A stretch of 64,000 bases of DNA. It comes from Chitinivibrionales bacterium (GTDB taxonomy: Bacteria; Fibrobacterota; Chitinivibrionia; Chitinivibrionales; WJKA01). The stretch covers positions 1-64,000 of the forward strand of contig WJLZ01000215.1 of assembly GCA_014728215.1 (NCBI GenBank), read 5' to 3'. The first letter of the stretch is position 1; every line of letters starts with the position of its first letter. The translations under genes and the position numbers were made by a program. The notes below the pieces were generated by a model that worked only from the letters and a program-made list of their open reading frames with translations, had not been told where the DNA came from and ran no database searches. This document shows, piece by piece, positions 8,539 to 47,392 of this stretch.

Positions 8539-9099
8539 GTGAATGAAAAAAATGTTCGAAAACCTATATCCAATTTCTTTATCAAGAAATCGATTCAGCT
8601 CAGCGTTATCTACAAAATTCTTCTGGTAGTCTTTTTAACTGCATTTTTAACCACACTCTCCCTGGCGTATGTGTATAATACAAAATCACAAAAAGGGACT
8701 TTCTATTATATGAGCAACGATATCCGTCAGGATATCGAGTTGCAGAGCGTTTTAGGTATTATTCTTCCCAGCGTTGTTACGGCTCAGGTGATCAGTATTG
8801 CGCTCGGTCTGATAATCGGTCTCTTTTCTTCGAGGAAAGTGGCGGTCCCTATCTATAAATTCGAAAACTGGGTTACTCAGCTCAAAAAAGGCAAATTGAC
8901 CACCCATCTTGGATTCAGGGAACAGAACCAGATGCGGGACCTGACGGTCCAATGCAACGCTATGGTCGATTATTACCGTCAGACAGTCGCAGACCTGAAA
9001 GAAATTGTGAGGACGGTTGAACAGAATAAAGAAGACCCTGTTACTGTCGGCAAACAAGCCGAACGGGCCCTGCAGATACTGGAAAAATTCACCATTTGA
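8539..9099 (+). CDS. Small membrane protein with two helices and a HAMP-like domain
   Basis: The start is a GTG at 8539 with GAGGGGG at 8523-8529. The 186 aa chain has a helix at about 25-50, a short periplasmic segment, a second helix at about 72-95 (PSVVTAQVISIALGLIIGLF), then a HAMP-like region (VAVPIYKFENWVTQLKKGKLTT) and a helical tail to the end. HAMP domains usually relay signals from a sensor to a kinase, cyclase or chemotaxis domain, but no output domain is present here. It may be a stand-alone adaptor that pairs with another helical signalling protein. It converges on dnaJ and is transcribed divergently from guaA. Confidence 0.65.
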   Translation: MNEKNVRKPISNFFIKKSIQLSVIYKILLVVFLTAFLTTLSLAYVYNTKSQKGTFYYMSNDIRQDIELQSVLGIILPSVVTAQVISIALGLIIGLFSSRKVAVPIYKFENWVTQLKKGKLTTHLGFREQNQMRDLTVQCNAMVDYYRQTVADLKEIVRTVEQNKEDPVTVGKQAERALQILEKFTI

Positions 9100-9139
9100 A
9101 TTTCAGATCAGGGGCCGACAAAGAACCTCGTTAGAGGAC

Positions 9140-10303
9140 CTATTTAAAGAATTCTTTTGCCTTATTGAATATCCCACCCGATTTTTCTTCATAGGCAGCC
9201 AGCTCTTCGAAAAGCCTTTTTTCTTCTTTACCGAGTCCGGTAGGCGTTTTCACATGGACCTTCACCATCTGATCTCCCCGCTGGGAGCTGCGCAAAACCG
9301 GGAGTCCCTTGGCTTTGAGACGGAATATCTTTTCCGACTGAGTCCCGGCGGGAATTTTCAGATTAACCTTGCCATCAAGGGTCGGAACGGTTTCGGTGGT
9401 ACCCAGTGCGGCTTTTGAAAAGGGAATATCGATTTCACAGAAAAGATCGATTCCATGACGTTCGAAAAAGGGGTGATGTTCTTCCTGGATAAGAACGATC
9501 AAATCGCCGGAAGGTCCGCCCTTCATCCCTGCATCGCCTTTACCCGGGATAGCAATATAATTCCCTTCAGCAACACCGGCAGGAATATCGACTGAAACTT
9601 TTGTCTGCGCGGGCTGACGGCTGCTTCCGTTGCAGTCGGGACAGGGATCGGTAGTAATGGAACCTTCCCCGCGGCAGGCCGGGCAGATTGATTCCTGAAT
9701 AATCTGACCGAAAAAAGAACCGGTTACATGTTGAACTCTTCCGCTGCCATTACACTTGGTACAGCTTGTTTTCTTACCGCTTTTGGAGCCGGTTCCATTA
9801 CAGGTTGAACATTTTTCCTGTCGCTGTACCTTGAGTGTCTTGGAGGCTCCGGACAGTATCTCTTCCAATGATAATTTGAGCCTGACCTGAAGGTCATTGC
9901 CGCGGATTCCACCGCCCCGCCGTCGTGAACCCCGACGCGGCCCACCGAAGAAATCACCGAAAGCCGATTCACCGCCACCGAAATCGTTCATAAATGCGCG
10001 CAGGGCATCGGAAAGATCGAATCCACCGAAACCACCACCACCAAATCCGCTGAAACCTGCGCCACCACCACCTCCGGCTTCAAAGGCAGCATGACCAAAC
10101 TGATCGTACTGAGCACGTTTCTTCGAATCTTTTAATATCTCATAGGCCTCGGTTGCTTCCCTGAATTTTTCTTCGGCTTCCTTACTCCCCGGATTTTTGT
10201 CTGGATGATACTGGACCGCAAGCTTGCGATAGGCCCGCTTGATCGCATCATCCCCGGCATCTTTGGAAACACCCAGGACCTCATAATAATCGCGTTTTGC
10301 CAT
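9140..10303 (-). CDS. dnaJ: Chaperone DnaJ (Hsp40)
   Basis: Co-chaperone that delivers clients to DnaK and stimulates its ATPase. The J domain (residues 1-70) contains the HPD tripeptide in YHPDKNPG. A Gly/Phe-rich linker (about 74-125) and a four-motif zinc region (CSTC, CTKC, CPAC, CPDC near residues 155-220) follow, then the two-part substrate-binding C-terminal domain. The fourth zinc motif reads CPDCNGSS, with Ser in the last Gly position. It is the last gene of the chaperone cluster, 255 bases downstream of dnaK with a hairpin between. Confidence 0.97.
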
Positions 10304-10477
10304 ATAATAATCTCACCTTATTTTTGTATAAATATAAAATCTGTTCTGAGAATAATGCACCCCGTTTTATTAATTACGATTATACAGGCCGTTTCATGTA
10401 CCCCGTCGAATTTGCCTTTTTGATGCCGCTTTGTCTGTGCATTCGTGCCATTCAAACAATAATTATACCTATCGCAT

Positions 10478-10504
10478 GGGGTAATTATTTGTAATTAATA
10501 CCCC
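10478..10504. other. Hairpin in the dnaK-dnaJ gap
   Basis: GGGGTA and the following complementary ACCCC arm flank an AT-rich centre that can also pair, giving a stem-loop in the 255-base gap between dnaK (ending 10559) and dnaJ (starting 10303). No long T-run follows on the minus strand, so it looks more like an mRNA processing or stabilising hairpin, or a partial terminator, than a full terminator. The remaining gap sequence shows no gene; TATAAT-like words on the minus strand at about 10463 could form a weak internal promoter. Confidence 0.4.
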
Positions 10505-10558
10505 ACGTGATATTGCATATCATATCCTCGCAACAATGATCATTTGTTTCAACGATGA

Positions 10559-12529
10559 TTATTTGTCATCATCGACTTCTTCGAAATCGGCATCAACAGC
10601 GCCGTCGGATTTTTTGCCGCCCGATTCTGTGCCGCTTTCCTGCGAACCCTGCTGTTCACCGGTGGATGTGCCGCCGGGCTGGGCGCCTGCTTCGGGTCCT
10701 CCTGCACCGGCGCCGCCGGCAGCCTGCTGTGCCGCAGCCGCCTGCTGATATAATTCACCGCCGATCTTCGAAAGATTTTCCATCGATGCCTTAATCGCCT
10801 CAATATCGTCACCCTTGGCTTTCTTTTTCAGATCATCGAGAGCAGACTGAATTTTGCCCTTAAGTTCATCGCCAACCTTGTCACCGGATTCTTTGAGCAT
10901 CTTTTCAGTCTGGAAAATGATCTGATCAGCCTGATTTTTCACATCGACCTTTTCCCGTTCCTTTTTATCCTCCTCGGCATGCGACTCGGCATCCTTGACC
11001 ATCTTGTTGATCTCACCTTCGGACAGGCCGCTCGATGATTCGATACGAATCTGCTGTTCTTTACCGGTACCCATATCTTTTGCACTCACATTGAGAATAC
11101 CATTCGCATCGATATCAAAAGTCACTTCGATCTGAGGTACCCCGCGTGGTGCGGGAGGAATGCCGACAAGATCGAATTTGCCCAACAGACGGTTATGGGA
11201 GGCCATCTCCCGTTCTCCCTGGTATACCATAATGGAGACGGCAGTCTGACTGTCAGCCGCAGTGGAAAAGATCTGACTTTTCTTGGTCGGAATCGTTGTA
11301 TTCCGTTCGATCAACTTGGTCATCACACCACCCAGCGTTTCGATACCGAGCGATAACGGGGTAACATCGAGCAGAAGAACATCCTTGACCGATTCATCAC
11401 CACCCAGAATAGCTGCCTGAATGGCTGCACCCACGGCAACAACTTCATCGGGATTTACACTCTTGTTCGGGGCTTTACCGAATATTTCCTGAACCCGCTG
11501 CTGCACAGCCGGAATTCTGGTCGATCCGCCAACCAGAATCACTTCGCTGATATCCGATGCATTCATTTTTGCATCGGCAATCGCTTTTTTGCATGGCTCC
11601 ACTGTTCGTGTCACCAGATGCTCCACCAGTGATTCAAATTTTGCACGGGTTATTGTCAGGTCAAGATGTTTCGGTCCGCTTGCATCAGCGGTGATAAAAG
11701 GAAGGTTTACATTTGTCTGGACAGCCGACGACAACTCACATTTTGCTTTTTCGGCAGCCTCTTTCAGCCGCTGCAACGCCATCCGGTCGTTACGCAGATC
11801 TATTCCGTTTTCCTTCTTGAACTCATCGGCGATATGATCGATAAGCACCTGATCGAAATCATCACCACCAAGATGTGTATCGCCATTGGTCGACTTAACC
11901 TCAAAAACACCTTCACCGATTTCCAGAATGGAAATATCGAAGGTACCGCCACCGAGGTCGAAAACTGCAATTTTCTCATTCCCCTTTTTGTCGAGTCCGT
12001 ATGCCAGCGATGCGGCGGTCGGTTCATTGACAATCCGCTTAACATCAAGACCGGCAATTTTTCCGGCATCCTTGGTTGCCTGACGCTGGGAGTCATTAAA
12101 ATAGGCCGGTACCGTAATAACCGCTTCTTTAACTTCAGTGCCAAGATAATCTTCCGCCGCTTTTTTCAGATACTGGAGCATCATGGCCGATAATTCCGGC
12201 GGCGTATAATCTTTCCCACCGGCATTCACTTTAACAAGCTCTGATGAACCACCGACAACTTGATATGGCACAATCTTTTCTTCAGCTTCAACTTCACTGT
12301 GACGGCGTCCCATGAACCGTTTGATTGAAAAAACCGTATTTTCGGGATTCGTCACTGCCTGGCGTTTTGCTATGGCGCCAACAAGGCGCTGATTGTCTTT
12401 TGTAAAAGCAACCATCGAGGGCGTTGTCCGGCCGCCTTCAGGATTGGCGATCACCTGCGGCTTACCGCCCTCCATTACCGCCACACATGAATTGGTCGTA
12501 CCAAGATCGATGCCTATTATCTTGCCCAT
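10559..12529 (-). CDS. dnaK: Chaperone DnaK (Hsp70)
   Basis: ATP-dependent chaperone of 656 aa. The nucleotide-binding domain starts [16 protein letters not shown], with the phosphate loops [10 protein letters not shown] and GGSTRIP. The interdomain linker [16 protein letters not shown] is followed by the substrate-binding beta domain and the helical lid. The tail is rich in Gly, Ala and Gln and ends [11 protein letters not shown], close to the usual EEV-containing bacterial end. AAGGAG sits before the ATG. It lies between grpE and dnaJ in the standard order. Confidence 0.99.
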
Positions 12530-38472: not shown

Positions 38473-40794
38473 CTACTTATCAAGAATCCCCCTGACCTTC
38501 TTCAGCAGTACATCAGGAGTAAAGGGCTTCTGGAGGAAATAGGTTCCGGGAGTCATTACACCGCGCTGGATTGCGACGGTATCGCTGCTGGTGTATCCTG
38601 AAATAAAGAGTACTTTCATTTCAGGATATTTGCCTGCAATAGCTTGGACCAGCTCGTGACCGCTCATCCCGGGCATTACAACATCGGTGATAATCAAATC
38701 GGGAGAACCATCGAACGTGTTACAAACTTCGATAGCCTCCTTCGGCGTTGAAGCGGAGAGAATTTTGTAATTTAGCTTCGTAAAGCTGCTGCATATCAGA
38801 TTTTTAACCGGCTCATTATCTTCAACAATAAGAATTGTCTCATCACCACTGAGGTTCTCCATCTTTTCAGCGGCAATTTCTTTGTGGTTTACCTCCCTCC
38901 TGTGTTGGGGGAGATAGATGCGGAACATGGTTCCATGGTCGGGTTTGCTCTCCACAATAATATGGCCGTTGTGCTGCTTGACAATACCATACACCGTTGC
39001 AAGACCGAGTCCGGTTCCTTTTCCCACTTTTTTTGTTGTAAAGAAGGGTTCGAAAAGATGGGATTTCACGTAATCGCTCATCCCGACGCCGGTATCTGAT
39101 ATGGAAAGCAAAACATAATCACCCGGAGTGATATCGCTTCCCTTTTTAACCTTCTCCGGACTGATTACCACATTCCGGGTTGAGAGCCGGAGGGTCCCTC
39201 CCTGCGTCATTGCATCCCGGGCATTGACTGCAAGATTCATCAGAATCTGCTCGAGCTGCACCGGATCTGCTTTTATCGGCATGAGGTCGGGAATCAACTT
39301 TGTTTCAACCCGAATATCATCGCTGAGAAGGCGGCCGAGCATATTCTCCATCGATCTGAGCAATTCATTGAGATCGAGCTGCTGAGGATTAACCACCTGC
39401 TTGCGGCTGAATGCAAGAAGCTGGTAGATAAGCGTTGCCGCGCGATTGCCCGCCTTTTTTATCTCCTCAACTTCATCCTGGAGGGTTTTATCCGGTCCGA
39501 TATTCTTCGCCAGCAATTCTGAATACCCCATAATTGCCGTTAAGATATTATTAAAATCATGGGCGATACCTCCCGCCAGTCTTCCAACAGCTTCCATTTT
39601 CTGGGAGTGAAAAAACTGATCTTCAAGGTTTTTCCGCAAAAGAGCATTGGCGATTATCTGAGATATAATTCGATATACCGCAATATCATCTTCATGCCAA
39701 TGGCTGCTGCTTCCTGCATTATCGCACCCGATAAACCCCGCAAGCTCCTGTTGGATGAAAAGGGGTAAAAGCAGAATCGATTTGAGTTTGGGTTTTTTAA
39801 TTTTTTTCAGTTCTGCCTGGGAAATATCCGGAATGGCTGCAATATCGGTAAAGAAGAGACACTCGCCCCGCTTAAGTTGCCTTACGGCAAAGGAAAGAAT
39901 ATCGACTATGGAATAAAAATCTTCTTTTTGTGGGGCTCCCTGCCCATCAGCATATTCCTCGAAATACTTTTCGATTGTGCCCGAATTCGAACCGAGCAAA
40001 ACAAGGTAGGTTCGATTGGCATTGCTGAGATTTGCTATATCCTGGAGGGTGGCCCTGACTGCAATATCGAGGTCGGTGGATGCGCCGATGAAGCGTGAAG
40101 AGACGGTTGATACGGCTTTTTCCAACTGGAGCCTGGTGCTCATTGCCTGCTCCACTTTCCTTTTTTCTTCAAGCTCGCGCTTGAGAAGCGTATTTGTATG
40201 AGCAAGCTCCCGGCCCATTTCACGGTCCCGTTTTGAGAGCCTGGTTATCTGCCTGTTATAGAGCCATAGAACAATCCCGATCCCACTGAGCCCTACAATA
40301 ATTACGGTGGATTCGGGGACAAGAGAGGCTTTTGCAAAACTGACTTGCGGCACTGTTCCCATAGTGCGGGCAAGGGTAACAAGAAGATAGGTGCCGATAC
40401 TCACAAGACCGAAAAAGAGTGCGGCAAGCGTATCGATAAGGATACCCGCCAAAATAGCAACCATCGCATACCCGACCAGCATTGAATGACTAATCCCAAA
40501 GTAACAATTACCGCCGTACATGGCAAGATACAAAGATAGAACGATAAGATACGAAGCGGTGGATATTTTATTTCGAAAGCAGAATAAAAAAGAAATAGCG
40601 CAGAGGAGTTGAACACCGATCCCGATTAAACCGGCCATCAGGGGAACTTTACCCATCAGCCACAGAATCGTGATAAAAAGACCATAGGTAAAACCGGAAC
40701 CGATAAGCAGCCATGCTACCGGACGGACTACGGCATAACGGTGTTCTGTGTCTGGTGACTCGATAAATTTTTGAAATAAGGGCTGTTCGGACAT
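38473..40794 (-). CDS. Membrane hybrid histidine kinase (GAF-HisKA-HATPase-REC)
   Basis: About six membrane helices (residues ~28-185) are followed by a coiled linker, a GAF-like domain (about 220-385), a dimerisation/phosphoacceptor domain with the His in GGIAHDFNNILTA at about residue 410, an ATPase domain (DTGVGMS, GTGLGLATVYGIV), and a C-terminal receiver (about 655-773) with the acceptor Asp in LIITDVVMPGMSG. It should sense a membrane or cytosolic signal and pass phosphate internally. No DNA-binding partner gene lies next to it. The ATG at 40794 is used rather than the TTG three bases before it. Confidence 0.92.
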   Translation of the reverse strand: MSEQPLFQKFIESPDTEHRYAVVRPVAWLLIGSGFTYGLFITILWLMGKVPLMAGLIGIGVQLLCAISFLFCFRNKISTASYLIVLSLYLAMYGGNCYFGISHSMLVGYAMVAILAGILIDTLAALFFGLVSIGTYLLVTLARTMGTVPQVSFAKASLVPESTVIIVGLSGIGIVLWLYNRQITRLSKRDREMGRELAHTNTLLKRELEEKRKVEQAMSTRLQLEKAVSTVSSRFIGASTDLDIAVRATLQDIANLSNANRTYLVLLGSNSGTIEKYFEEYADGQGAPQKEDFYSIVDILSFAVRQLKRGECLFFTDIAAIPDISQAELKKIKKPKLKSILLLPLFIQQELAGFIGCDNAGSSSHWHEDDIAVYRIISQIIANALLRKNLEDQFFHSQKMEAVGRLAGGIAHDFNNILTAIMGYSELLAKNIGPDKTLQDEVEEIKKAGNRAATLIYQLLAFSRKQVVNPQQLDLNELLRSMENMLGRLLSDDIRVETKLIPDLMPIKADPVQLEQILMNLAVNARDAMTQGGTLRLSTRNVVISPEKVKKGSDITPGDYVLLSISDTGVGMSDYVKSHLFEPFFTTKKVGKGTGLGLATVYGIVKQHNGHIIVESKPDHGTMFRIYLPQHRREVNHKEIAAEKMENLSGDETILIVEDNEPVKNLICSSFTKLNYKILSASTPKEAIEVCNTFDGSPDLIITDVVMPGMSGHELVQAIAGKYPEMKVLFISGYTSSDTVAIQRGVMTPGTYFLQKPFTPDVLLKKVRGILDK

Positions 40795-40855
40795 CAATTA
40801 TATAATAACACTACCCGATCTTCTTATCAAGAATAATGGAACGATATCTTTCATC

Positions 40856-43000
40856 TCAAATTTCGGTCGTTGCTGCAATAATTTGCTCAATTGTTGTTTC
40901 ACCTCTGAGTGCAAGCTCAATTCCTGCCTGGCGAAGCGTTTTCATTCCTTCTTTTTCAGCCTGTTGCTGAATTTCCATTGTCGGTGTATTCCGTAAGATC
41001 AGGGTACGAAGGTTTTTCGAAATGCTGATCATTTCAAATATTCCGGTTCGTCCCATATAGCCGGTACCGTTGCAATTAACACACCCCTCTCCCTTGAAAA
41101 ATGTGAGATTCGCGCTTTTTGCAAGGTTCAGCTGTTCAAGCAGCTCGGCGGAGGGTTTAATTTCAATTCTGCATTTTGTGCATATTCGCCGCACCAGACG
41201 TTGCGCCACGATGAGATTCAGCGCCGATCCGATCAGGAGCGGCGGTACGCCGATATCGGTAAATCGAGCAATAGCACCGGCCGCATCGTTGGTATGAAGG
41301 GTCGAAAAGACAAGGTGACCGGTAAGCGCCATCTTGATAGCGATATCTGCGGTTTCGGCATCCCGGATTTCACCGATCAATACAATATCGGGGTCCTGAC
41401 GGAGAATCGAGCGAAGGGCACTTGAAAAATTCAATTCGATTTTGTTATTTACCTGGACCTGCGTTATTCCTTCCATATGGAATTCAACCGGGTCTTCAAC
41501 TGTGACAATATTACGGGCAACCGATTTTACGGTCTGCATTGCCGAATAAAGCGTAGTAGATTTTCCGCTTCCCGTAGGGCCAGTGACAATAATCATCCCG
41601 TAGGGCTTTGTAATATTCTGTTTAAATATTGCAAAGTCGTGGGCGGTAAATCCCAGATTAGCCGTGCTTCGCTCAAATGCTTCTTTATCGAGTATCCGGA
41701 GCACCGCTTTCTCTCCCCATACCGAGGGCAATATTGACACACGAATATCGATCTCTTTACGACCGATTTTCACCACCATACGCCCGTCCTGCGGCAACCG
41801 CCGTTCGGCGATATCGAGATCGGAGAGAATTTTTATCCGGGTGATTATCGCCTGATGAGAACGCTTGGGAGGAGAAATGACTTTCCGCAACTCGCCATCG
41901 ATACGATACCGGATCGTGAGTTCTTTTTCCATAGGTTCGATATGAATATCGCTTGCCCTGTCACGAACAGCATTGGCGATCATCATGTTCACCAGCTTGA
42001 TAATTCCCAGTTCCGCACCTGCCGCAGCAGCCTCTTCCACACTGAGATCATCGGCCTCCTGCTGTAAATATTCGACATCCTCCCCCAGGTCGGCCATGAG
42101 GTCCGAAGCATCTCTCTGGGATGAAATATCGGTATAGTAGCGCTCGATACTGGTGTTGATATCTTCAATTGTACCCAGTGCCGGCACAATAACCATGTCG
42201 GTAATATCGCGTAATGTGTCAAGTTGTCGTAAATTCAATACATCGGCCATGGCAACGATAAGCCGGTTTCCTTCTTCCTTCTCGAGTGCAAGGCAGGTAA
42301 ACCGTTTTGCCACCGACTCGGGGATAAGCGCCACGACATTGAGATCCGCCGATGCATACTGCCTTGGTGTGGCAAGGGGGGCACCCAATTGACTTGAGAG
42401 AAAATGCAACTTCTGTTCTTCGGTAATATACCCCAGCATGACAAGGGCATCACCCAACCGGCAGTCGGAGCCTTTCTGATATTCGAGGGCCTTGCGGAGC
42501 TGAAGAGGAGTAATAACCGAATTTTCGACCAGGATCTGACCAAGTGAATGCTGTGCCTTCCCGAAATCGACCACAGGACTCTTATTTTCCTTCTCGATTT
42601 TCAGAGAAACGACATGGGTCATGATCTTGCTGCCGAATTCCTGTGGTGATACCGGCAGCAGAACGATATCATCAGTGGAAATATCGCTAATTCTCTGCCG
42701 GATATCAGCCCGTACCCCTTCGGATAAAACAGCAAATACGGCAGGGACTTTCCTGACAATTTTAAGAAAAGTCACATCCTCGATATATTTATTGATGTCA
42801 TCGTTGATATCAAATACTGCTACTGCAATATCACACTTAAGACCGTTTTTCCGTGTCAGGGAAGCATGAGAAACATTCACCACATCCCCGAGACCGCCAT
42901 TGAATATCAGTCCCTGAATTTTGTTATAACATTCCGAATTATCGTAGGTACAGACAGCAAGCTGATGCTTTTTTGCAATATCTTCCGTTGTGCGGTTCAT
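40856..43000 (-). CDS. GspE/PilB-type secretion ATPase with an N-terminal receiver-like domain
   Basis: Hexameric ATPase of the type II secretion/type IV pilus class. Residues ~150-290 are a GspE N-terminal (MshEN) domain (LGQILVENSVITPLQLRKALE), and ~330-700 the motor: Walker A GPTGSGKST near residue 475, Walker B DIVLIGEIRDAETA, and the zinc motif with CTKC and CVNC pairs (about 608-645). The first ~135 residues look like a response-regulator fold (AVAVFDIN, ending PVSPQEFGSKIMTHV) without a clear phosphoacceptor set. No pilin or secretin genes are adjacent, so it may serve a system encoded elsewhere or work as a signalling ATPase with its neighbours. Confidence 0.87.
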   Translation of the reverse strand: MNRTTEDIAKKHQLAVCTYDNSECYNKIQGLIFNGGLGDVVNVSHASLTRKNGLKCDIAVAVFDINDDINKYIEDVTFLKIVRKVPAVFAVLSEGVRADIRQRISDISTDDIVLLPVSPQEFGSKIMTHVVSLKIEKENKSPVVDFGKAQHSLGQILVENSVITPLQLRKALEYQKGSDCRLGDALVMLGYITEEQKLHFLSSQLGAPLATPRQYASADLNVVALIPESVAKRFTCLALEKEEGNRLIVAMADVLNLRQLDTLRDITDMVIVPALGTIEDINTSIERYYTDISSQRDASDLMADLGEDVEYLQQEADDLSVEEAAAAGAELGIIKLVNMMIANAVRDRASDIHIEPMEKELTIRYRIDGELRKVISPPKRSHQAIITRIKILSDLDIAERRLPQDGRMVVKIGRKEIDIRVSILPSVWGEKAVLRILDKEAFERSTANLGFTAHDFAIFKQNITKPYGMIIVTGPTGSGKSTTLYSAMQTVKSVARNIVTVEDPVEFHMEGITQVQVNNKIELNFSSALRSILRQDPDIVLIGEIRDAETADIAIKMALTGHLVFSTLHTNDAAGAIARFTDIGVPPLLIGSALNLIVAQRLVRRICTKCRIEIKPSAELLEQLNLAKSANLTFFKGEGCVNCNGTGYMGRTGIFEMISISKNLRTLILRNTPTMEIQQQAEKEGMKTLRQAGIELALRGETTIEQIIAATTEI

Positions 43001-43009
43001 CGGTCTCTC

Positions 43010-46000
43010 CTACGCCCTCTTCTCGAGCATTTTTTTATGCACCGCCTTTGTTTTTCGTATAAAAGCGGTTAATGTCGGTTCTTTTGCGGTGTCATATGCA
43101 GTGATCGAATAGTGTATATCAGGGTGAAGCACCTGATCGTCTGTCGGGACCTGCATAGTATTAAATATATCTGATAACCGTTTCATAACAACTTCGGCTC
43201 CAGCCATATCGGTCATGGAAAGCAGAATAACAATTAAATTACTTCCCAGCGAGCCCAGAGAGCCAATGCAATCGAGGTCCCGCAGCATTTTTGATAATAT
43301 ACTCTGGACTTCATCATAAACACGATATAAATCATCCTGCTCCGGTGCATGTCGATCCTCACCTGTTACAATACTCTCCACCGAAAGTGAAAGGACCGCA
43401 AATGGAGCCTTATACCGGCGGTATCTACTGATTTCCCGCTGTATCTGCGTCTTGAACTCTTTCTGCCGCATGATTCCTTTGGGCAGGGAATATCTTTTTT
43501 TCTTTTTGCTTTCAGACTTTTCTTTTTTACCCTTGTCGGTATACTGGGTTTGTCCGGCTCCTTCACCGGCATCCTGTTTCGCCAGATACCCCAGCGCACG
43601 AGCGCCGTCTATGGGAGCAGCGTCGGGCAGGACATCTTTTTCATCACCGAGCATCTGTTCGTTTTCGAGTTTCAGAACAACCTTCTCCAGTTGCTCTGCG
43701 ACTTTATTACCGATTCCCTGAACCACGGTTTCATTATAGCCGGAACTGCTTAAACGGGCAACAAACTCTTTATTCATTTGATTGAGTGCGTCGAGCCTCT
43801 GAGGTGCCGGCGTTCCTTTCATATTAAAGGCAACCTGTTCACCGATTCGTTCTATATAATTTTGTACAACAGACTGCAACTCCTGCTCATCCGTTTCCAG
43901 CATGGAACCGATATCAGCAGCCAGAGCAACATATTGACGGATATGTTCTTCGGGGTATCCCTTTTGAAGCAGTGTCTGGGTAAGCGGCTGCAAAAAGGCA
44001 TGCGTTTTCTGATCATACTCAGCGATATGGGCAAGTATCTGCAGGTTTTCACTTTCGGTGAGCATTTTCCCCTCAGGGGCATTATCCAGAACACCTTCAT
44101 CAACAAGCCGTCCGATAATTTCTCCCAGGCTATCAGAAAGGCGTGTACACACCTTCCCAACGGCATCGTCATCAATCTTCCGTTCTTTCAGAAAGCGTTT
44201 AAACTGCTGCTCCATACCCCCGAGAGTCTGTTTAACTGCGGAGGAGACAAGGGAGGCGTCCCCGGTAATTGCTTTTTGGGATGATAATTCTGCAACACGG
44301 TCTGCATAATCGAGCAAGACGATTCGAATATCATGTCCTTTTTCGGCACCGATAACAGATTCGATTTCTGAAGCAAGGGAGACAAAATCTTTGACATTCT
44401 GTTCTGAAAGTCCCTTGGTCTCGAGCATTTTTACAAAAGTGCTCGTATCAGGCAGACGATCTGCTTCTTGACGGGCAATATGGGCCAGCGCCTGTTTTTG
44501 CAGCATTTCGGAAATCGGCCGGTCCGGCGATGACTTGCTCAACATGCCCTCGGAATCGAGTTCAACAATGATCGACGCCATACGCTCCGCCAGACGGTTC
44601 CCGATCTCGGAAATAACCGCGGGGTCAATCGAACACCTGCTCAGCTGTTCAAGAAGTCTGTTTTCCAGATCGGCAATGATCTTTGACGTTTGCCCCCTGT
44701 CGGCACCCGATTTTCCGGCATCCAGTGCAACTTCACCGATATTCATAATACTATTGTTGACAATTGCCCGTATTTCGTCATCGTTTGAGCCAACCATCGA
44801 CTGAATGTCTGCTGCCAGTTCGGCAAATTCCCCTATTTGCCCTTGAGTAAAACCGTGTTCTTTCAGTTTTTCCGAAAAGGAGGCGAACTGCAACGGCTCT
44901 CTGCTATCCCCGCCGGCGGCACCGGTATCGGGAACGGGGATAGCATGCATTTGTGTTTGAGCAAGATCATCATGGGTTTGATCATCCGATTCCTGCCCGG
45001 AAAGTTTATCCAGTTCGGTAACGATGTCCGAAACAGCTATCCTGTCGAGTCCGTAATTTTCGAGCTGTCGTATAAATTCGGTTTCGAGCCGGGAGATTTC
45101 ATGTTCCCGGGATGTCATGTTTTCTCCGGTTTCTCCCCGGCCGGCATCTTGCACCAGCCTGGAACAGACCTTCTCGATATAATCGGTCATAAGGTTCCGG
45201 AACTGATCGCTGTCGGAGCCCATCAACGAACCGATCTCCGCCGAGAGAAGGATCAATCGAACAGCTGACTGGGGATTATTCTTGACATCATCAATTATCT
45301 CATCAACCGATACCCCGACCTCCTCGGCAGCCTCTGACAGCGCACGCACCAGTCCTTCTTCCTCAAGCTCTTTTGCAAGTTCCCGAACCAGACTCAGGTA
45401 TTCCTCAAGCGACATCCCTTCTTCAATAAGCGTCTTTTTTAATTGCGGAAGCAGGCGTTTCAAGTCGCGGATTTCGGGAAGTAAACGGCGGATTATCTCA
45501 CCCAGCCGCTTTACTGTAATCTTACCGGCGCGGTATTCTTCCCTTACAACCCGGATAATGACTTCAAAAGTCAGCCGTTCAAGTTCGGTAATAACATCTT
45601 CATTAACTTCATCGATCTTCCCTTTTTCCGCTTCAGCCTGCATCCTGTCGAGGATGCTTTTTTTCAGCGACGACAGCGTGGTAAGCATATCTTCAGTTGA
45701 AATATCGGGCTGGTTTTCAGCCGATGCCCCGATATGTTCACGCATTGTTTTCAGGCGGAATGCAATCGATGATGCTGCCTGTTCACCCACATGGGAAGGG
45801 GTTGTCAGAAGTTCATCCGCAACAACATCTCCGGCCGAAGGAATATCGCCCACCGAAAATACCTCGGCCAGTTTACGAAGGTCATTGCGCACGATACTCT
45901 CTTCAATGGTGATTCTCTCATAGGTGACATAATTGAAACGGAGTCCTTTTACCTTATTTTCGTGAAGCCGGTCGGCCATACTTTCGACCGTAGGACATCC

Positions 46001-46363
46001 CTTGTTATCACTCATTACCCGAATCAACTCAAGGAGATCTTCTTCTTCGATCCCTGTGTGAAAGGTAATGGATTGCACCCGGGCATCTTTCAAACGGGTT
46101 ACCAGCCGCCCGCCAAAGGAGCGTTCGGAAACTTTCCACTCCTCACAGACAAGAGTGTCATGTTCAAGATGGATCGTTACGGGTGTTATATTTGCCAGTA
46201 TTTTACTCAGATGGGTATAGAAATTTTCTCCAGCCTTTCGGGTAAGAGGATGATTTTCTCCATAGAGTACAAAATTATTGAAAGCCACCCACAGGTTTCT
46301 GACAATAAGATCGGCTTCTTTCTGATCAAGATGCCATTCTGTTGGTGGTTTTTGCATGTCCAT
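43010..46363 (-). CDS. Large repeat protein with degenerate GGDEF tail (1117 aa)
   Basis: No known family was recognised for most of it. Residues 1-150 form an N-terminal domain beginning with LWVAFNNFVLYGENHPLT. Residues ~170-350 are helical and charged. Four copies of a ~147-residue helical repeat follow, with hallmarks LLSAEIGSLMG (373), ELAADIQSMVG (515), SLASEIESVIG (662) and ALAADIGSMLE (813), each followed by a GLVxxGVL-like second half. Residues ~960-1117 resemble a GGDEF domain (RYRRYKAPFAVLSLSVE), but the catalytic loop reads LGSLGSNLIVIL, so cyclase activity is unlikely. Its stop is nine bases before the GspE-like gene. Confidence 0.7.
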   Translation of the reverse strand: MDMQKPPTEWHLDQKEADLIVRNLWVAFNNFVLYGENHPLTRKAGENFYTHLSKILANITPVTIHLEHDTLVCEEWKVSERSFGGRLVTRLKDARVQSITFHTGIEEEDLLELIRVMSDNKGCPTVESMADRLHENKVKGLRFNYVTYERITIEESIVRNDLRKLAEVFSVGDIPSAGDVVADELLTTPSHVGEQAASSIAFRLKTMREHIGASAENQPDISTEDMLTTLSSLKKSILDRMQAEAEKGKIDEVNEDVITELERLTFEVIIRVVREEYRAGKITVKRLGEIIRRLLPEIRDLKRLLPQLKKTLIEEGMSLEEYLSLVRELAKELEEEGLVRALSEAAEEVGVSVDEIIDDVKNNPQSAVRLILLSAEIGSLMGSDSDQFRNLMTDYIEKVCSRLVQDAGRGETGENMTSREHEISRLETEFIRQLENYGLDRIAVSDIVTELDKLSGQESDDQTHDDLAQTQMHAIPVPDTGAAGGDSREPLQFASFSEKLKEHGFTQGQIGEFAELAADIQSMVGSNDDEIRAIVNNSIMNIGEVALDAGKSGADRGQTSKIIADLENRLLEQLSRCSIDPAVISEIGNRLAERMASIIVELDSEGMLSKSSPDRPISEMLQKQALAHIARQEADRLPDTSTFVKMLETKGLSEQNVKDFVSLASEIESVIGAEKGHDIRIVLLDYADRVAELSSQKAITGDASLVSSAVKQTLGGMEQQFKRFLKERKIDDDAVGKVCTRLSDSLGEIIGRLVDEGVLDNAPEGKMLTESENLQILAHIAEYDQKTHAFLQPLTQTLLQKGYPEEHIRQYVALAADIGSMLETDEQELQSVVQNYIERIGEQVAFNMKGTPAPQRLDALNQMNKEFVARLSSSGYNETVVQGIGNKVAEQLEKVVLKLENEQMLGDEKDVLPDAAPIDGARALGYLAKQDAGEGAGQTQYTDKGKKEKSESKKKKRYSLPKGIMRQKEFKTQIQREISRYRRYKAPFAVLSLSVESIVTGEDRHAPEQDDLYRVYDEVQSILSKMLRDLDCIGSLGSLGSNLIVILLSMTDMAGAEVVMKRLSDIFNTMQVPTDDQVLHPDIHYSITAYDTAKEPTLTAFIRKTKAVHKKMLEKRA

Positions 46364-46501: not shown

Positions 46502-47392
46502 TTATAAAAATGCGCGTTTATAGCTCTCCACATCTTCCCTGAATTCTTCACAGCTTTGATAGCGATCGTCCGGTGATGGCGCGATTGCTTTGAGTATGAT
46601 ATTTTCCAAATGATGATTGATTGTTTGAGAAACCTCAGATGGTTTCTGAGTAAAAACTTTTTCGGGGGCTTCAATTTTCTTTATCAACAGCTCCATAGGG
46701 TTTTTGTCGGCCAGAGGAAGCTTTCCGGCAATAGTCTGAAAAAGCACAATGCCCATAGAATATATATCGGCCCGCTGATCGGTATCTTTTCTTTCCACCT
46801 GCTCGGGGGCCATAAAAAGCGGACTTCCAACAATAACCCCCTCTTGCTTGACTTCCGACTGGCGGGTCCGGGCAATACCGAAATCCGCGATCAATGGACG
46901 TTTGGTGCGTTCTTCGATCAGGATATTCGCCGGCTTGATATCCTGATGAACAACGCCTTCCGCGTGGGCATAAGCCAAGCCGTCAAGGGCCTGCATGAAC
47001 AAAGGTATCGAATCATCCAGGGGAATGGTGCGTTTGGTGGGAATAGGGTTTTTCAGGCGGTTCTTGATCATACTGTCAAGATCCTGTCCTTTGATAACCT
47101 GGATCACCTGATAATAGCAGTCATCCGCCTCCCCCATTTCGAAGATGGGAATAATATTGGGATGGCTGAGTACCGCTACCATTTCGGCTTCCTGGCGAAA
47201 CAGCTCACGGGAAGCCTCGGTGGTTTTATCGGATTTGGGCATGATTTTAACCGCAACCTGACGTTTCAGGGTGCGCTGGAATCCCAGAAAAACGCCCCCG
47301 GACGCCCCTTTGCCGATAAGTTTCAGCAACGTAACCGTTCCAAGGTCCCGGCCGATAAAATTCTCCGGTTTGATTTCAAGATTGCCTGCCAT
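46502..47392 (-). CDS. Serine/threonine protein kinase (Hanks type)
   Basis: A complete kinase domain of 296 aa with no membrane anchor: Gly-rich loop IGKGASGGVF, catalytic Lys in VAVKIMP, the HQDIKPANIL loop (Gln where most kinases have Arg), DFGIAR, and APE within GSPLFMAPEQVE. Replacing Arg in HRD is common in bacterial kinases. It heads a minus-strand series with the repeat protein and the GspE-like ATPase, which are possible substrates. Its own promoter candidate (TTGCTT/TATAAA) lies at 47459-47486. Confidence 0.93.
   Translation of the reverse strand: MAGNLEIKPENFIGRDLGTVTLLKLIGKGASGGVFLGFQRTLKRQVAVKIMPKSDKTTEASRELFRQEAEMVAVLSHPNIIPIFEMGEADDCYYQVIQVIKGQDLDSMIKNRLKNPIPTKRTIPLDDSIPLFMQALDGLAYAHAEGVVHQDIKPANILIEERTKRPLIADFGIARTRQSEVKQEGVIVGSPLFMAPEQVERKDTDQRADIYSMGIVLFQTIAGKLPLADKNPMELLIKKIEAPEKVFTQKPSEVSQTINHHLENIILKAIAPSPDDRYQSCEEFREDVESYKRAFL

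Follow-up and report, generated by a model that had tools for sequence, protein, structure and literature searches.

The 1117 aa protein encoded at 43010..46363 on the minus strand of the window (the whole stretch of 64,000 nucleotides of DNA that was analysed) is, judged from its sequence, on balance best explained as a non-enzymatic c-di-GMP receptor of the PelD/PopA type, which would use an I-site, would be carried on a helical scaffold and would have a Hanks-type Ser/Thr kinase as its dedicated partner. Sequence comparisons and structure models established the fold, the loss of the catalytic motifs, the retention of the I-site residues, the linkage to the kinase, and the clade-specific repeat expansion and ATPase. 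Due to its inheritance with a Ser/Thr kinase in two phyla and its conserved c-di-GMP site, the protein probably connects two kinds of signalling for which separate study is the rule. More tentatively, kinase and dead GGDEF protein may constitute an undescribed module that merges Ser/Thr phosphorylation with c-di-GMP in both phyla, and in which the duplicated units of one clade (from one to three or four) command a pilus/secretion ATPase. Among the papers searched, none linked Hanks-type kinases with GGDEF, I-site and c-di-GMP, and none linked Fibrobacterota with type IV pili and c-di-GMP. Ser/Thr kinase and c-di-GMP signalling have mostly been studied apart, and a conserved kinase/receptor pair in two phyla would be a compact test system for how they meet, with named residues for mutation and with hosts that include chromosome-scale Wenzhouxiangellaceae genomes. 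Moreover, the N-terminal domain and the helical unit are without a curated family, and the natural series of 1, 3 and 4 units lends itself to the question of scaffold length.

The open reading frame given in the initial annotation was exact, and its neighbours, a Ser/Thr kinase on one side and a PilB/GspE-like ATPase on the other, were confirmed, with all three genes on one strand. The order of transcription is kinase (47392..46502), receptor gene, ATPase (43000..40856) and a histidine kinase with receiver (40797..38473). The following features were assigned:

46502..47392, minus strand: Hanks-type Ser/Thr kinase, 296 aa, conserved upstream partner (catalytic motifs)
43010..46363, minus strand: whole gene of the receptor/scaffold protein, with the ATG at 46363
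45929..46327, minus strand: N-terminal alpha/beta domain, residues 13-145, family-conserved (structure prediction)
45341..45691, minus strand: conserved helical core, residues 225-341 (family conservation)
44888..45340, minus strand: repeat unit 1, residues 342-492 (profile of four units)
44441..44878, minus strand: repeat unit 2, residues 496-641 (same profile)
43988..44437, minus strand: repeat unit 3, residues 643-792 (same profile)
43544..43984, minus strand: repeat unit 4, residues 794-940 (same profile)
43013..43489, minus strand: degenerate GGDEF-fold tail, residues 959-1117 (structure prediction and alignment)
43415..43417, minus strand: R983, I-site position equivalent to PleD R313 (alignment)
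43271..43282, minus strand: R1028-x-x-D1031, I-site RxxD equivalent to PleD R359/D362 (alignment)
43178..43180, minus strand: R1062, I-site position equivalent to PleD R390 (alignment)
40856..43000, minus strand: PilB/GspE-like ATPase with MshEN-type motif, adjoining only in the multi-repeat clade
42389..42547, minus strand: MshEN c-di-GMP motif of 53 residues, ATPase residues 152-204 (motif model)

The tail was predicted confidently as a GGDEF fold, most blocks from residue 961 onwards having a pLDDT of 86-96. Its best solved match, at Z 18.5 and an rmsd of 2.0 over 148 residues, was 3ign, a GGDEF domain in complex with c-di-GMP; PleD (2v0n) was matched with Z 17.7, and the GGDEF domain of FimX was also among the fold matches. 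Together with the fold match, the absence of a GG[D/E]EF motif from 40/40 family tails confirms the earlier description of a GGDEF-like tail without its catalytic loop. For a column-wise comparison, 30 family tails were set against 28 ordinary GGDEF domains from their own and neighbouring genomes. The two Asp columns of the DxD metal site were occupied in 0/30 and 1/30 family tails and in 28/28 controls, the second Gly of GGDEF was found in none of the 30 family tails, and other substrate columns were lost too.

The I-site of PleD comprises the RxxD residues R359 and D362 together with R390, to which the neighbouring subunit contributes R313 (PMC12943098, PMC7288161). In the alignment with 3ign, an Arg or Asp stands opposite each of the equivalent residues R983, R1028, D1031 and R1062. 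Across family members of both phyla, R983 and D1031 are kept in 47/47 and R1028 in 46/47, while the position of R1062 holds Arg in 42/47 and Arg or Lys in 46/47 (four Lys); a divergent paralogue (L080) is without R1028. Equivalents are likewise kept in the ordinary GGDEF domains (n=28), namely R983 in 26, R1028 in 26, D1031 in 27 and R1062 in 15. Judging from these alignments, the presence of an I-site is in itself not special, and its selective retention with the enzyme lost is what counts. Since ordinary GGDEF domains keep the same residues, they could be retained for the fold, and the tail could be a dimerisation or docking module that binds no nucleotide, the protein serving as scaffold and substrate of the kinase. 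The pairing with the kinase, being independent of a ligand, would suit such a module. However, the domain has very few invariant columns, those of the I-site among them, whereas other columns typical of the GGDEF fold have not been conserved, and we consider a purely structural tail rather unlikely. Binding of c-di-GMP by the tail at its I-site is, from this pattern of conservation, likely, and c-di-GMP should be present, as the window genome encodes many ordinary GGDEF proteins. The earlier proposal of a scaffold or c-di-GMP-sensing protein fits these data, its c-di-GMP side being stronger than could be known when it was made, with the I-site positions kept and the catalytic ones lost.

The proposed receptor resembles PelD, a regulator of Pel polysaccharide and degenerate GGDEF protein with RxxD and a downstream Arg, which binds c-di-GMP by the corresponding residues without catalysis (PMC7112168). 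The spacing in PelD is +3 from Arg to Asp, and from Arg to Arg it is +32 in B. cereus and +35 in P. aeruginosa, compared with +3 and +34 in the window protein. The PelD_GGDEF model PF16963 matched 4/30 family members weakly (best E 0.0015) and the window protein not at E 1. Pfam gave no GAF match for the window protein, and the fold matches of its N-terminal domain to chains with a GAF domain were not significant. Unlike PelD, it has no Pel genes alongside, and it differs in its N-terminal domain, helical core, repeats and kinase partner. PopA of Caulobacter, a PleD paralogue, also has a dead catalytic site and binds c-di-GMP through a conserved RxxD (PMC12564702). It belongs to the response regulators, whereas no receiver domain or two-component linkage was found for the window protein.

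The kinase has intact motifs (VAVKIM, HQDIKPAN, ADFGIA and APEQ; PF00069 at E 2.7e-49) and is the sole neighbour kept across lineages, the flanks otherwise changing entirely, for instance to cytochrome/MtrB, sugar-processing or purine-synthesis genes. In 40 genomes of the order, both genes were present in 28, the protein only in 5, the kinase only in 0 and neither in 7 (one-sided p = 4e-5, with genomes counted as independent despite shared ancestry); the five protein-only genomes are mostly incomplete or carry truncated copies. In one genus (g5) the two genes lie mostly on separate contigs, yet both are retained, and in Wenzhouxiangellaceae the kinase precedes the receptor in 8/8 loci inspected. 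The orthologue is specific, as only one of the 28 first-look kinase candidates of the window genome matched at E 1e-55 or better. It is therefore the kinase that is the conserved partner, and the initial annotation, in which kinase and ATPase were both named as neighbours, has to be revised, the ATPase being a local addition. From this co-inheritance, it is quite probable that the kinase binds or phosphorylates the receptor. Second copies such as L078, which have no adjacent kinase, count against the pairing. L078, the second copy of the window genome (722 aa), is preceded by a 244-aa gene without Pfam match, in a stretch at 8572-12459.

Open frames of ~1044 aa in Wenzhouxiangellaceae were considered as kinase-receptor fusions and rejected, the kinase lying in a separate frame that the long frame overruns. 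A second close kinase copy with 66 % identity to the window kinase was found on a separate contig of another genome (G002, C49:37435-38295). Downstream of L078, on the opposite strand, lies an FHA-domain protein, the second half of which resembles, by eye, a class III nucleotide cyclase. Phospho-threonine is what FHA domains usually recognise, and kinase signalling is thus hinted at again beside L078.

The four helical units of ~147 residues reported initially were recovered with a profile of the units and with shuffled sequences: unit pairs gave local scores of z = 9 to 24 above 300 shuffles at pairwise identities of 18-27 %. No Pfam or NCBIfam model scored above cut-off across the repeat region (residues 342-940), and Pfam contains no repeat family for the units, in line with their earlier description as an undescribed repeat. 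The hallmark motif does recur, at residues 373, 516, 663 and 814 and not at 375, 518, 665 and 816 as first given, and its spacing, described as constant, is near-constant only (143, 147 and 151). Structure prediction with AlphaFold2, a check that had been suggested, gave five helices in a common order in all units, with local pLDDT mostly 75-88 for units 2-4 and lower for unit 1. The alignment over units 2-4 was shallow, and due to a full-length pTM of 0.30 the model gives no reliable domain arrangement. Two conserved parts of the family, the N-terminal domain and the core, are not mentioned in the initial annotation and were found here. The N-terminal domain was predicted with pLDDT 91 and pTM 0.84; it is without a Pfam model, and its comparison with the PDB gave no confident fold match (best Foldseek E 0.54, VIA Z 4.5). 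Such weak matches of a predicted domain neither exclude a known fold nor prove a new one. The helical core is the most invariant part of the family protein (e.g. ELKRLLPxLK).

The unnamed receptor family occurs in Chitinivibrionales (Fibrobacterota) and Wenzhouxiangellaceae (Gammaproteobacteria). The nearest named records belong to Chitinivibrionales and Chitinispirillaceae MAGs of the Fibrobacterota, and a search of 60 relatives gave matches in 35 genomes. A first genome-wide scan with a single protein as query and a search of plasmids gave no match, and in a phylum-wide profile search most weak matches were restricted to the tail and probably represent GGDEF domains of the ordinary kind. The usual family form has ~720 aa and comprises N-terminal domain, core, a single repeat unit and dead GGDEF tail. 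More than one full unit was found in three proteins only, i.e. the window protein (4), L005 (3) and L004 (3), while L016 has a partial second match. The three form one clade (support 93/87), to which L006, with one unit, is the sister (joint support 100/99), and the ATPase lies directly downstream in the same three. A unit common to the whole family has thus been expanded to the four-fold repeat within a single clade, and this expansion coincides with the linkage to the ATPase. The repeat is not the defining part of the protein, since most relatives have one unit and the four-fold state is late. In a genome of the same genus (G001), the assembly breaks inside the receptor gene, with the kinase beside the gene start and the ATPase at the edge of another contig, as expected if its operon were the same as that of the window.

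In the family tree, the Wenzhouxiangellaceae pair (L067, L070, L072, L073 and L146-L153) is nested within Fibrobacterota, which suggests a transfer of the kinase/receptor pair between phyla. Binning errors behind the 'Wenzhouxiangella' MAG labels were considered and set aside, since their RpoB is just 48 % identical to that of the window genome and looks gammaproteobacterial, the receptor gene lies on contigs of 3.5 and 3.7 Mb and the core is present in 19/43 Wenzhouxiangellaceae genomes.

The ATPase begins 13 bp downstream of the receptor gene and matched T2SSE with E 1.2e-134 and the model of the MshE-type c-di-GMP motif (NF053729) above cut-off. As in the published MshEN layout (PMC5013675) of MshE and PilB, it has two motifs of 24 residues each, set 5 residues apart, and the final Gln in both. 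In contrast to MshEN ATPases, Ser replaces the first Arg and the first turn Gly of the first motif, so that c-di-GMP binding may be weakened, and ~150 further N-terminal residues are without Pfam assignment. The first ~140 residues (42580-43000, minus strand), for which Pfam gave no match at E 1, resemble, by eye, a receiver domain that lacks the usual motifs. Many genomes of the order encode similar ATPases (55-85 % identity) that are not linked to the receptor. The ATPase was rejected as the conserved partner of the family because it adjoins the receptor only in the multi-repeat clade, to which any control of it by the receptor is limited. Within this clade, the extra repeats could serve the ATPase or the receptor could control it, a possibility that we regard as doubtful on present sequence comparisons. 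A comparable case is FimX, which likewise has a degenerate GGDEF domain and acts together with the ATPase of a type IV pilus (PMC11656802). FimX binds c-di-GMP via an EAL domain, whereas the window protein ends with the GGDEF fold, and neither Pfam nor NCBIfam gave an EAL match for it. If the whole protein were a FimX-like, dedicated regulator of the neighbouring ATPase and the kinase incidental, the 13 bp distance, the coincidence of multi-repeat forms with the ATPase and its MshE-type motif would be explained, but most relatives have the kinase and not the ATPase adjoining, and the ATPase subtype also occurs without the receptor, which makes this reading improbable.

For the preferred reading, a kinase-paired I-site receptor, the following mechanism is proposed. 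The tail would no longer synthesise c-di-GMP and would be expected to bind it at R983, R1028, D1031 and R1062, which probably alters the association between tails. N-terminal domain, core and repeats would hold the partners, i.e. the kinase throughout the family and probably the ATPase in the lineage of the window only, with the extra repeats lengthening the docking surface. The signal could run either way, the kinase setting the state of the receptor or the c-di-GMP-bound receptor directing the kinase.

The possibility that the tail is a diguanylate cyclase still active through an atypical catalytic site, to which weak GGDEF profile matches below the curated cut-offs might point, was rejected as highly implausible, since the catalytic columns are lost. 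As a further peculiarity of the tail, H1109 (43037-43039, minus strand) was present in 30/30 sequences of the first alignment and in 40/47 overall, at a position where ordinary GGDEF domains have Leu/Met.
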